Source of the DNA: Bacteroidales bacterium
Lineage (GTDB): Bacteria > Bacteroidota > Bacteroidia > Bacteroidales > P3
Assembly (NCBI GenBank): GCA_009785505.1
Contig: WQWA01000001.1
Coordinates: 1-64,000 of the forward strand
Length of the DNA stretch: 64,000 nucleotides
Direction: 5' to 3'
Positions 24,459-27,913 of this stretch are shown here, piece by piece. Position 1 is the first letter of the stretch; each line of letters begins with the position of its first letter. The position numbers were made by a program, and so were the translations under genes. A model generated the notes under the pieces. It was not told where the DNA came from. It ran no database searches and saw only the letters and a program-made list of their open reading frames with translations.

Positions 24459-25667
24459 TTAATTTTCTATTCCCATTTCTTGTGCTATTTCTTCCGCTGA
24501 TTGCGGTTTTACTATATCTATATTTTCTCCTTTGAGTTGAACATCCGCACTTACACTTAAAATAATTCCAATGCCCAAACTGGTTAGCCAAAGTGATGTT
24601 CCACCCATACTTAAAAAAGGTAATACTTGTCCCGTTACCGGAAACAATCCAACCGCTACTGCCATATTTACAAAGGCTTGCGAAACCAAAACAAATGCAA
24701 TGCCAAAGACCAAATAACTTCCAAACGTTCCCTCACATTTTCGTGAAATGGAAATTGCCCGAAACATCAGCATCAGATACAACATTAAAATTCCGACACC
24801 TCCGACAAATCCATATTCTTCAATAATTATGGCATAAATAAAATCTGAATAAGCATGCGGTAAATTGTTGCGTTGCGTACTGTTTCCCGGCATCTTCCCG
24901 AATAAACCGCCACTTGCAATTGCAATTTTGGCTTGTTCCATTTGATGATTTTCTCGGCTTCCATCCGGATTAGAAAATCGATCAATGCGTGCCGCCCAAG
25001 TACCCATCCGTCCCATTTCATTGAGACGTTCTTGCGGAATTACCTGCATCAAAACAAACATCAAAACCAAACCCGTCAAACAAACAGCGAGCGTGCTGGT
25101 AATGTACCTCAAATTAATTTGTCCGATAAACATCATCACGATTCCTGCGAGAAAAATCAAAGCCGATGTTGAAAAATTTGCAGGAAAAACCAAACCGCAA
25201 ACAAGCAATGTTGGAATCATAATATGCAAAAACGGTCCACGTTCTTTAATCCGATCTTTATCTTTCGCCAATATTCGTGCGGTGTACATAACAAGTGCCA
25301 ATTTTGCTAGATCCGACGGTTGAAACGTGATATTAATAACCGGAAGCATGATCCAACGGGCGGCTTGATTGATTTCGTGAGGCGAAGCCAGTGCCCAAAT
25401 CAATGCCGGAATAGCAACAATAAGCAGAAGTTGTGAGATTCGCGAATAATAAACATAAGGGATTTTATGTGCTACATAAATAATTCCCAGTCCGGAACAC
25501 AATATCAAGAAATGTCTCAACACATAATGCTCGGTGGCTTGTCCCATTCTGAACGCCAAACTTCCCGTCGAACTATAAATCGCCAGCAACCCGAAAATAG
25601 ACAAAATGAATACTATGACCCAAATGCCTTTATCGCCGTGTAGATATGTCCAGATATTTTTTTTCAT
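24459..25667 (-). CDS. ftsW: Septal peptidoglycan glycosyltransferase FtsW
   Basis: SEDS-family polytopic membrane protein with about ten helices that polymerises lipid II together with FtsI at the division site. Motifs: ARWIMLPVINITFQPSDLAKLALV, the long loop with GNSTQRNNLPHAYSDFIYAIIIEEYG and the closing PFLSMGGTSLW. The dcw position favours FtsW over RodA. I chose ATG 25667 (MKKNIWTYLHGDKGIW); a longer GTG frame starts inside the palindrome at 25678. Confidence 0.94.
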   Translation of the reverse strand: MKKNIWTYLHGDKGIWVIVFILSIFGLLAIYSSTGSLAFRMGQATEHYVLRHFLILCSGLGIIYVAHKIPYVYYSRISQLLLIVAIPALIWALASPHEINQAARWIMLPVINITFQPSDLAKLALVMYTARILAKDKDRIKERGPFLHIMIPTLLVCGLVFPANFSTSALIFLAGIVMMFIGQINLRYITSTLAVCLTGLVLMFVLMQVIPQERLNEMGRMGTWAARIDRFSNPDGSRENHQMEQAKIAIASGGLFGKMPGNSTQRNNLPHAYSDFIYAIIIEEYGFVGGVGILMLYLMLMFRAISISRKCEGTFGSYLVFGIAFVLVSQAFVNMAVAVGLFPVTGQVLPFLSMGGTSLWLTSLGIGIILSVSADVQLKGENIDIVKPQSAEEIAQEMGIEN

Positions 25668-25677
25668 GTTATCGTTG

Positions 25678-25697
25678 AGACGCACTGCCGTGCGTTT
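25678..25697. repeat. Palindrome AGACGCAC-type between murD and ftsW
   Basis: Near-palindrome AGACGCACTGCCGTGCGTTT, the second copy of the element at 15659. It sits between the stop of murD and the start of ftsW. Confidence 0.7.
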
Positions 25698-25701
25698 TTA
25701 C

Positions 25702-26250
25702 CTATAATTCGTTTACTGCATTTCTAAATTGACTACCTCTATCTTCATAACTTTCAAACAAATCGAAACTCGGCGCAGCCGGCGAAAACAGCACGGCATC
25801 GCCACTTTCCGCTAAACGGTAAGCTGTGTCCACCGCATCTTTTGCTGATGTTGTTTGCACGATTACCGACACCATATCGCCAAATTCTTTGCAAATTTTT
25901 GTATTGTCAACGCCCAAACAAACTATTGCCTTTACCTGTTTTTCGACCAGCGATTTCAGGGATTTGTAATCGTTTTTAATGTCTTGTCCGCCGACAATCC
26001 AAACCAAAGGTTTAGTCATTTTTTCCAAAGCATACCATGTGGCGTTCACGTTGGTGGCTTTGGAGTCGTTGATAAATTCAATGCCTCGCACGCTGGCAAC
26101 GTACTCCAAACGATGTTCTTCGTTGCGAAAACCACCAAAACTTTCCATAAGGCTTTTTTTGCGAAGTTCATAAATGCGTTGTGCGACTGATGCCGCCATC
26201 GTTTCGTGCTGTGTTGAGATGCTTTGTTGAGCTAATGTTTCAAAATTCAT
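25702..26250 (-). pseudogene. murD: Truncated UDP-N-acetylmuramoylalanine--D-glutamate ligase (MurD C-terminal domain)
   Basis: A 182-residue remnant of a family that is normally about 440 residues. It has the MurD C-terminal domain: HRLEYVASVRGIEFINDSKATNVNATWYAL, VWIVGGQDIKNDY and the end SPAAPSFDLFESYEDRG. The N-terminal UDP-binding domain and the whole central ATPase domain, with its GxxGKT P-loop, are missing; only 22 nt separate it from mraY, so no room is left for them. The first 16 residues (MNFETLAQQSISTQHE) give it a start codon. The fragment cannot be an active ligase alone. It could be a deletion product, an assembly gap, or one half of a split enzyme. Confidence 0.8.
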
Positions 26251-26272
26251 GGCTTATGTTTGGTTTTGATGT

Positions 26273-27415
26273 TTAACGTAATCTGATTGTAACGATTGTA
26301 AAAATGGCAAGTAAAACGCCGACGATGAAAAAGCGCATCACAATTTTTGGCTCAGACAAACCTTTCATCTGAAAGTGATGATGAAGCGGAGCCATTAAGA
26401 AAATCCGCCTGCCTGCACCATATTTTTTCTTTGTATACTTGAAGTAAGAAACTTGCATCATCACGGAAAGACTTTGCATCAAGAAAATTCCGCAAAGCAC
26501 GGGCAACAACAATTCTTTACGAATTAGAATTGCGATAACCGCAATAATTCCACCAATGGTCAAACTTCCTGTATCCCCCATAAACACTTGGGCAGGATAT
26601 GCGTTGTACCATAAAAATCCAATCAGTGCCCCGATAAACGCCGCTATAAAAATTATCAACTCGCCCACATTGGGAAGATGCATAATGTTGAGGTAATTTG
26701 CAAAAATAACATTGCCTGAAAGCCATGCCAAAATAGCCAACGCCACACCAATAATTGCTGACGAGCCTGCCGCTAAACCGTCAATTCCGTCCGTTAAATT
26801 TGCTCCATTTGAAACGGCTGTGATGATAAAAATTACAGCAAGAACAAAAACTATCCATGTGTAGCTTGACGCTCCTTCGCCCATCCAACTGATCAACCAT
26901 GCGTAATCAAATTCGGTTTGCTTTATAAACGGAATGGTTGTTAGGGTTGATTTATCTGAAAAATACACCGTCAATCCTATAATTAAGCCTAATCCGACTT
27001 GTCCCAGTATTTTGAATTTTCCGGCAAGTCCTTTTTTATCTTTTTTGAATACCTTGATGTAATCATCCAAAAATCCGACAAGTCCAAGCCAAATCGTTGT
27101 TATGAGCATCAAAATAATGTAGGTATTGTGCAGTCTTGCGAACAGCAATGTTGGAATTATGATTCCGCCGATAATAATCAATCCGCCCATTGTTGGCGTT
27201 CCTTTTTTCTGCATCTGACCTTCTAATCCCAAGTCACGAATATTTTCCCCCACTTGTTTTTTACGCAAAAACTCAATCATGCGTCGCCCATAAACAATGG
27301 TAATCCACAGCGACAACAAAGCCGCCATTGCCGCACGAAATGAAAGAAACTGGAATAGTCCGGTTCCGGGTATGTTAAAATTTTCGTGTAGATAATTAAA
27401 TAGGTAGTATAGCAT
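26273..27415 (-). CDS. mraY: Phospho-MurNAc-pentapeptide translocase
   Basis: A 380-residue polytopic membrane enzyme with about ten helices. It transfers phospho-MurNAc-pentapeptide to undecaprenyl phosphate, making lipid I. Conserved parts: [30 protein letters not shown] (catalytic Asp pair), [16 protein letters not shown], and the cytosolic [18 protein letters not shown] (HHH motif). Usual place after murE; a small membrane-protein gene separates them. Confidence 0.97.
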
Positions 27416-27427
27416 TTTTTTGCAGTT

Positions 27428-27913
27428 TTAGTTTATGTGGCGTTTCTTCGTTTTTTTTTGATACGTTACTATTATGCTGAACAGTAGCGGTTGTAGCAAT
27501 GTTTCTAACATACCTAAACTGGCACTAACGGGTAAATCTTCAATAGGAGCAAGATAAATTAACCCTTGAATAGAGCCATGAGCAGGTCCGTAAGTATTGA
27601 AAATACCAAGTATTACAAGAATAGCCCAAAGTTTAAGCCACCCCAATTTTTTCCCGATAATGCTGTCTTTAATCCACCAAATGACTACACCCAATAGAAG
27701 TCCTCTGATAATTTGACCAAACAATACCGCCCCTATGCTGATTTCGTCCAAAGGTCTGAAGCCCATTAATTCCATTACGCTTTCTGCATAACTAAACGTT
27801 AAAGGCATAGCAAGTATAGTAACAACAATGTAAGTAATAACATGTGTTAATGTTACTTTGGTGAAAAATTTAATTTTTTCCTTACCTTGATAAACTTGTG
27901 CATTATTTTTCAT
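27428..27913 (-). CDS. Small integral membrane protein between murE and mraY
   Basis: A 161-residue protein with four predicted transmembrane segments (about 17-37, 62-82, 90-110 and 130-150) and a basic C-terminus (KKTKKRHIN). No family recognised. It lies 4 nt after the murE stop and 12 nt before mraY, so it is co-transcribed with peptidoglycan genes. An accessory role is possible but nothing in the sequence shows it. Confidence 0.75.
   Translation of the reverse strand: MKNNAQVYQGKEKIKFFTKVTLTHVITYIVVTILAMPLTFSYAESVMELMGFRPLDEISIGAVLFGQIIRGLLLGVVIWWIKDSIIGKKLGWLKLWAILVILGIFNTYGPAHGSIQGLIYLAPIEDLPVSASLGMLETLLQPLLFSIIVTYQKKTKKRHIN

Follow-up and report, generated by a model that had tools for sequence, protein, structure and literature searches.

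The ORF at positions 25702..26250 (minus strand) of the window, i.e., of the whole 64,000-nt stretch of Bacteroidales DNA analysed here, is a stand-alone gene for the MurD C-terminal domain (182 aa; referred to below as murD-C), as recognized from profile matches, conservation, dN/dS and fold. We consider it probable (about 0.6, judging from comparative sequence data) that murD-C is a functional gene encoding a free, non-catalytic MurD C-domain, which arose first as an internal-start product and only later became a gene in its own right. In the accessible portion of the open-access literature, we found no report of a stand-alone MurD C-domain, of an internal start in murD, or of MurL in Bacteroidota.

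The ORF comprises 182 codons, starts with an ATG and bears no internal stop. When compared to the murD profile TIGR01087, it matched only positions 274-440 of 441 (E 6.4e-48), and its score remained under the curated cut-off (163.9 vs. 211.95 bits). Mur_ligase_C (PF02875; residues 46-158, positions 25777..26115, minus strand, 51.6 bits) was the sole Pfam family over its cut-off, and the Pfam search revealed no P-loop domain Mur_ligase_M (PF08245) either inside murD-C or joined to it; the seven Mur_ligase_M domains of the genome all sit in other genes. Lacking both the UDP-binding N-terminal and the central P-loop domains, murD-C does not belong to MurD proper, and by both its Mur_ligase_C sequence and its fold it does belong to the MurD C-terminal domains. 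The AlphaFold model had a mean pLDDT of 80.6, with residues 1-12 below 50 and a confident part at residues 50-182 (mostly above 84), and the best Foldseek match to the MurD structure 7ti7 had an E of 2.2e-15 and a TMq of 0.71. The ATG (26248..26250, minus strand) is equivalent in alignments to the internal Met265 of canonical full-length MurD (here and below in the numbering of the full-length protein L025, unless E. coli is named). Three motifs on the same strand deserve mention: DSKAT (26053..26067), the equivalent of E. coli Lys319/Thr321, which is kept in the window's genus and gone from most other genera; GGQDIKNDY (25966..25992), which corresponds to GGxDKGNDY of full MurD; and the SFDLFESYEDRG segment (25735..25770), which the window copy retains and which most other genera have deleted or altered. 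The window copy thus has the Lys319 and Ser415 equivalents, and Ile stands in the place of Lys348. The first-pass annotation had described an open frame of 182 codons with a start codon and conserved motifs, covering the MurD C-terminal domain only, and all these points were borne out. Taken together, murD-C resembles full-length MurD in the sequence and fold of the C-domain and in its gene place between mraY and ftsW, but differs in having no UDP- and ATP-binding domains and no Lys348 equivalent, and alone it would be no ligase.

The gene is preceded by mraY (26273..27415, minus strand; TIGR00445, 331.6 bits), and, as had been noted earlier, only 22 nt (26251..26272, minus strand) separate the mraY stop from the murD-C ATG; nothing left over from the MurD N-terminal or central domains is present in this gap. 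Downstream of murD-C comes the ORF 24459..25685 (minus strand), syntenic in relatives, which we take to be ftsW from the gene order and the presumed family. Upstream, between murE and mraY, there is a 161-aa ORF (27428-27913, minus strand) with no NCBIfam match and a sole Pfam match at chance level (DUF7520, E 0.05). The interval 3′ of mraY was taken from 40 relatives, 34 of which are from the window's family (f1). A C-domain-only MurD ORF occupies the mraY-ftsW interval in all 34 f1 relatives (the G010 contig stops short of ftsW) and in 38 of the 40 relatives altogether, including one genome each of the families f2, f4, f6 and f16; the remaining two intervals contain a full-length canonical MurD (G049) or are too short to judge (G048). 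With the window included, 35 of the 37 f1 genomes have murD-C, and the other two (G004 and G031) yielded no mraY locus. An assembly collapse, proposed in the first-pass annotation as one way to account for the short murD, or a binning artefact, could be favoured by the state of the assembly (1.83 Mb, 50 contigs, 92% complete), but the same arrangement in 38 of 40 relatives, the clean mraY-gap-ATG joint and the lack of any N-terminal remnant refute a collapse and leave an artefact of either kind with a negligible probability.

What had been described as a reduced murD turned out, on comparison with relatives, to be a conserved and constrained gene, a point absent from the first-pass annotation. 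Identity to the window copy ranges from 26 to 92% in 32 aligned copies, and between genera it drops to 26-35%, with 26-39% covering most copies. The NG86 dN/dS of murD-C in within-genus pairs with dS<1 was 0.009-0.15, and it was lower than that of ftsW in 7 of 10 pairs. Neither relaxed selection nor broken frames were seen, and a pseudogene was rejected on dN/dS, with ftsW as a yardstick. In the tree, the murD-C copies nest with canonical MurD, and MurD2 is separate with 100/100 support (frag_G010, located at a contig edge, and can_L038, which is cut off, were omitted). The tree excludes MurD2 as the source of the fragment; by their phylogenetic position, the murD-C copies are derivatives of canonical MurD.

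When the copies were compared with 93 canonical MurDs, the HN pair, Lys328, Thr330, the GGxDKGNDY loop and the ASFDLF..YED segment were found to be gone or altered. These sites hold the D-Glu/nucleotide contacts of the E. coli enzyme (Lys319, Thr321, Lys348 and Ser415 in its numbering). The numbering of the E. coli MurD contact residues is partly given in the available text of PMC8788868. Among 39 copies, the equivalent of Lys319 is present in 14, that of Lys348 in 6, and that of Ser415 in 14. The window copy and its genus are nearer to the canonical state than other copies. Most copies lack the residues that contact D-Glu and ATP, so murD-C is, as judged by these losses, a non-catalytic protein. 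In the survey of retained residues, which omitted G010, G190 and G216 and handled full-length rows separately, other positions are kept almost throughout: Met265, Asp326, Trp336 and Trp348 (97% each), Ile349 (98%), Val443 (95%), Pro421 (92%), Leu446 (90%) and Ser420 (88%). Trp348 is also found in 38 of 38 full-length MurDs from genomes with MurL (MurL+), vs. 9 of 15 from genomes with the glutamate racemase MurI (MurI+).

These data bear on two other explanations. According to the first, murD was cut after MurD2 and MurL had taken over, and the remainder is a relic, a slowly decaying pseudogene held in place by the operon layout. The loss of catalytic residues from most copies would fit this, as would the low identity between genera and the state of two copies in the genus g5, which are 161-162 aa long, poorly alignable and perhaps in decay. 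We nevertheless regard a relic as improbable, given the dN/dS values in unsaturated pairs, mostly under those of ftsW, a frame kept open in 38 of 40 intervals, the 97-98% retention of Asp326, Trp336, Trp348 and Ile349, and the recurrence of the truncation (see below) with the same start. The second explanation is a split enzyme, a possibility that the first-pass annotation had also raised; in the form considered here, murD-C would complement in trans the N-terminal and central domains of MurD2, or of a different Mur ligase, for the use of D-Glu. Although the window's genus keeps the DSKAT and SFDLF motifs, no canonical MurD N-terminal half was found in the genome, nor was any stand-alone N-terminal half, the full Mur ligases found own their C-domains, and the Lys348 equivalent is gone in the window copy and most others, which makes a split enzyme highly improbable.

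The first-pass annotation had further listed a full copy elsewhere among the possibilities and proposed a genome search for a MurD N-terminal/ATPase domain. The search did reveal a full-length MurD homologue, the sole one in the genome, on contig C39 (10877-12211; 335 bits, above the TIGR01087 cut-off), but this is not the same gene: it groups in a MurD2-like clade apart from canonical MurD (100/100). According to the available text of PMC8788868, Glu197 and Arg358 decide L-Glu use by the Xanthomonas MurD2. The MurD2-type sequences have Arg at the place of E. coli Lys348 in 12 of 12 cases and Glu at that of Asp182 in 10 of 12; the C39 gene itself has Arg at the former and Asp (not Glu) at the latter. 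A MurL-like protein is encoded on contig C23; it matched the model NF041275 at positions 24-409 of 447 with 264.2 bits (E 6.8e-79), which is below the curated 700-bit cut-off of this model, named for Xanthomonadales. MurI was not found in the window genome by the profile search. Among 198 Bacteroidales genomes, MurL was found in 68, MurI over its cut-off in 120, both in none and neither in 10, so that MurL occurs without MurI, the D-Glu maker searched for, in all 68 MurL+ genomes. This distribution together with the C39 and C23 genes makes the alternative route the likely source of D-Glu in the window genome, the activities of the putative MurD2 and MurL being predicted from sequence.

As compared to the MurD2/MurL route of Xanthomonas oryzae, described in the available text of PMC8788868, the window genome is alike in having a MurD homologue with the Arg, a MurL-like protein and no MurI. 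It differs in that its MurD2 and MurL are both distant from the known ones, that a free MurD C-domain accompanies these genes, and that MurL and MurD2 are often fused in other genera of the family. Such a fusion is seen at L053 1486-4257 (minus strand), where a frame of 923 aa contains the MurL match at 49-445 and the MurD match at 489-919; fused frames in other genera of the window's family span 885-1138 aa. In the G003 assembly, no full-length MurD was found above the cut-off. Another genome, G051 (L127, family f16; 98% complete, 10 contigs), has mraY and the C-domain-only frame, and full MurD, MurL and MurI were all not found there. The available portions of two reviews do not name Bacteroidota among the hosts of MurL/MurD2; the sequence data presented here show that the route is widespread in Bacteroidales, with MurL in 68 of 198 genomes, although those portions leave this group unnamed.

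The truncation of murD is tied to MurL+ genomes. Stand-alone frames shorter than 250 aa were present, among the matches listed, in 19 of 55 MurL+ genomes and in none of 87 MurI+ genomes (Fisher 6e-10); this tally covers the 150 matches listed and includes 87 of the 120 MurI+ genomes. The MurI+ genome G190, looked at additionally, has a murD piece that stops at the contig end. Twenty-three further chosen genomes added seven MurL+ genomes with a stand-alone frame, and G037 and G051 came from the interval survey. The stand-alone domain is thereby found in 28 genomes, 27 of which are MurL+, the exception being G051, which has neither MurL nor MurI. A full-length canonical MurD is retained in 33 other MurL+ genomes. 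The pattern picked up all six catalytic motifs in the 28 scanned full-length MurDs of MurL+ genomes, apart from three genomes where it overlooked a single motif, so these proteins are probably still enzymes. The 33 genomes therefore have an apparently intact D-Glu ligase although MurI was not found in them; their D-Glu perhaps comes from salvage.

Both full and truncated murD occur in the families f27, f35, f50, f74 and f94, and in f35 and f50 both forms occur inside one genus. Such mixed families make it probable that murD was truncated on several occasions. Parsimony on the C-domain tree, which took 8 of the 35 f1 copies and 11 canonical rows, gave about 10 changes (bootstrap range 10-13), of which well-supported branches force only 2. 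A topology uniting all copies in a single clade was not rejected for the first tree (AU p 0.353); despite this value, the mixed families in the wider sample argue against a single truncation. The length of L025 from Met265 to its stop, 182 aa, is matched exactly by 21 of the 59 stand-alone copies. No N-terminal MurD remnant was found upstream of the stand-alone copies; the N-side matches lie at the fragment's own start, and the query used, L042, is itself N-terminally cut.

The start of murD-C thus coincides with Met265, which is Met in 91 of 93 canonical Bacteroidota MurDs and the most conserved internal Met. To separate RNA from protein constraint, third-position A was set against the usage expected from each gene's own synonymous codons; the test was post hoc, devised after the Met had been noticed, and ranks over all windows and other genes served as a control. 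In 79 genes (left of the 93 after thinning at 80% identity), the A-excess peaked at residues 264-265 (z 10.7, 441 windows), and synonymously shuffled sequences folded more strongly near Met265 than the real RNA (rank 10 of 217). Met265 still came top (z 10.0) when the test was corrected for amino acid, next base and column entropy and extended to five other cell-wall genes as controls (six dcw genes, 2539 windows). The remaining high A-peaks fell at genuine 5′ starts (MurE, MurG, MurD and MraY) or at the end of a gene where the next one follows; at 13 further conserved internal Mets, z ranged from -3.9 to +1.2. The internal-start signature stands out most sharply in the full-length murD genes of MurL+ Bacteroidales: in 36 of the 38 genes (the other two are without the Met), z reached 11.6 within 7 codons of Met265 (rank 1/446), the next peak, z 5.7, lay at the gene's own start, and 33 of 36 genes were positive at Met265. 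The upstream base context (A at -3 in 68%) was set aside because of a variable polar loop at that place, and the synonymous test was used instead.

Compared by group, Sphingobacteriales showed a clear signature (an upstream z of 5.6 and a fold rank of 1 in 150) and Flavobacteriales a broad A-rich peak, mostly upstream of Met265. No signature was seen in the MurI+ Bacteroidales (n=14; z -0.24 upstream and 1.95 downstream) or at Met265 in Chitinophagales (n=8), and 31 genes without a class label, in a comparison that took groups of at least 6, gave a z of only 2.8. MurL was found in 0 of 39 genomes of Flavobacteriales, Sphingobacteriales and Chitinophagales (orders as titled in the records) and in 5 of another 11, whose titles read Bacteroidales or similar. 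Since the signature appears in groups with no MurL found, MurL alone does not explain it, and a link between the two throughout Bacteroidota is unsupported. Conservation of the Met is likewise insufficient as proof of an internal start, as MurI+ Bacteroidales keep it (14 of 15) without the signature, and it is conserved in Chitinophagales as well. One record with a Bacteroidota-type murD, L158 (CALPVI020000072.1), is titled Actinomyces viscosus and is probably from a misnamed bin.

According to the available text of PMC6847099, start regions in Flavobacterium johnsoniae are A-rich and unstructured. The signature at Met265 suggests that full-length murD of MurL+ genomes probably yields both the full enzyme and a C-domain isoform. 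This is alike in principle to Cas11b produced from cas8b in Haloferax volcanii (available text of PMC11899642), where an internal Met gives rise to a separate C-terminal protein; the protein and the pathway are unrelated, and Cas11b was detected, whereas the murD isoform is predicted only from sequence signatures. One may also suppose that there is no isoform, that the C-domain works only within full-length MurD (e.g., in docking to MraY, MurG or FtsW), and that the truncations use Met265 simply as the nearest conserved ATG at the domain border. The Met found in 91 of 93 MurDs, including those of MurI+ Bacteroidales that show no signature, speaks for this, but the synonymous A excess and the weak RNA fold at Met265 would be unexpected without initiation, and other conserved internal Mets show no such signal, so we hold this explanation to be unlikely, though clearly less so than a relic.

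The reading we prefer is a free C-domain that began as an internal-start product. By sequence, a MurD2-like ligase and a MurL-like epimerase are encoded elsewhere in the genomes of the family, where glutamate racemase was not found; canonical MurD has lost its UDP- and ATP-binding domains, and its C-domain is kept under purifying selection between mraY and ftsW. The enzyme half may have been deleted once MurD2/MurL had made the canonical ligase dispensable. Truncation with a shared start recurred in different MurL+ lineages, and this, together with the Met265 signature, strongly suggests that the C-domain already had a function of its own when it was cut off, possibly as the product of an internal start. 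Today, murD-C may act as an adaptor or subunit in place of MurD within a Mur/MraY/FtsW assembly, or as a partner of MurD2/MurL: its position in the operon and the conserved Trp residues point to contact with the Mur/MraY/FtsW machinery, and its association with MurL+ lineages is just as compatible with a function alongside MurD2/MurL. More tentatively, and with somewhat more doubt than belief, we propose that murD of many Bacteroidota may hide an internal-start gene for a non-catalytic C-domain protein, obligate in cell-wall precursor synthesis; a switch of Bacteroidales to L-Glu ligation by MurD2 and epimerisation by MurL would then have rendered the enzyme half superfluous, and its repeated deletion would have set the hidden gene free. 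The comparative codon data thus predict a gene within the essential gene murD, and a non-catalytic role of a Mur ligase domain becomes directly testable, as the catalytic part has already been deleted in nature.

A minor point concerns the first residues of murD-C, which the first-pass annotation had found to be the same as those of murC, possibly by chance. The murC gene (window ~16.5-18.0 kb, minus strand) does open with MNFETL as well. The N-terminus of murD-C, MNFETLAQQ, is how the segment with the internal Met265 of full MurD reads in this copy, so that chance is enough to explain the likeness.
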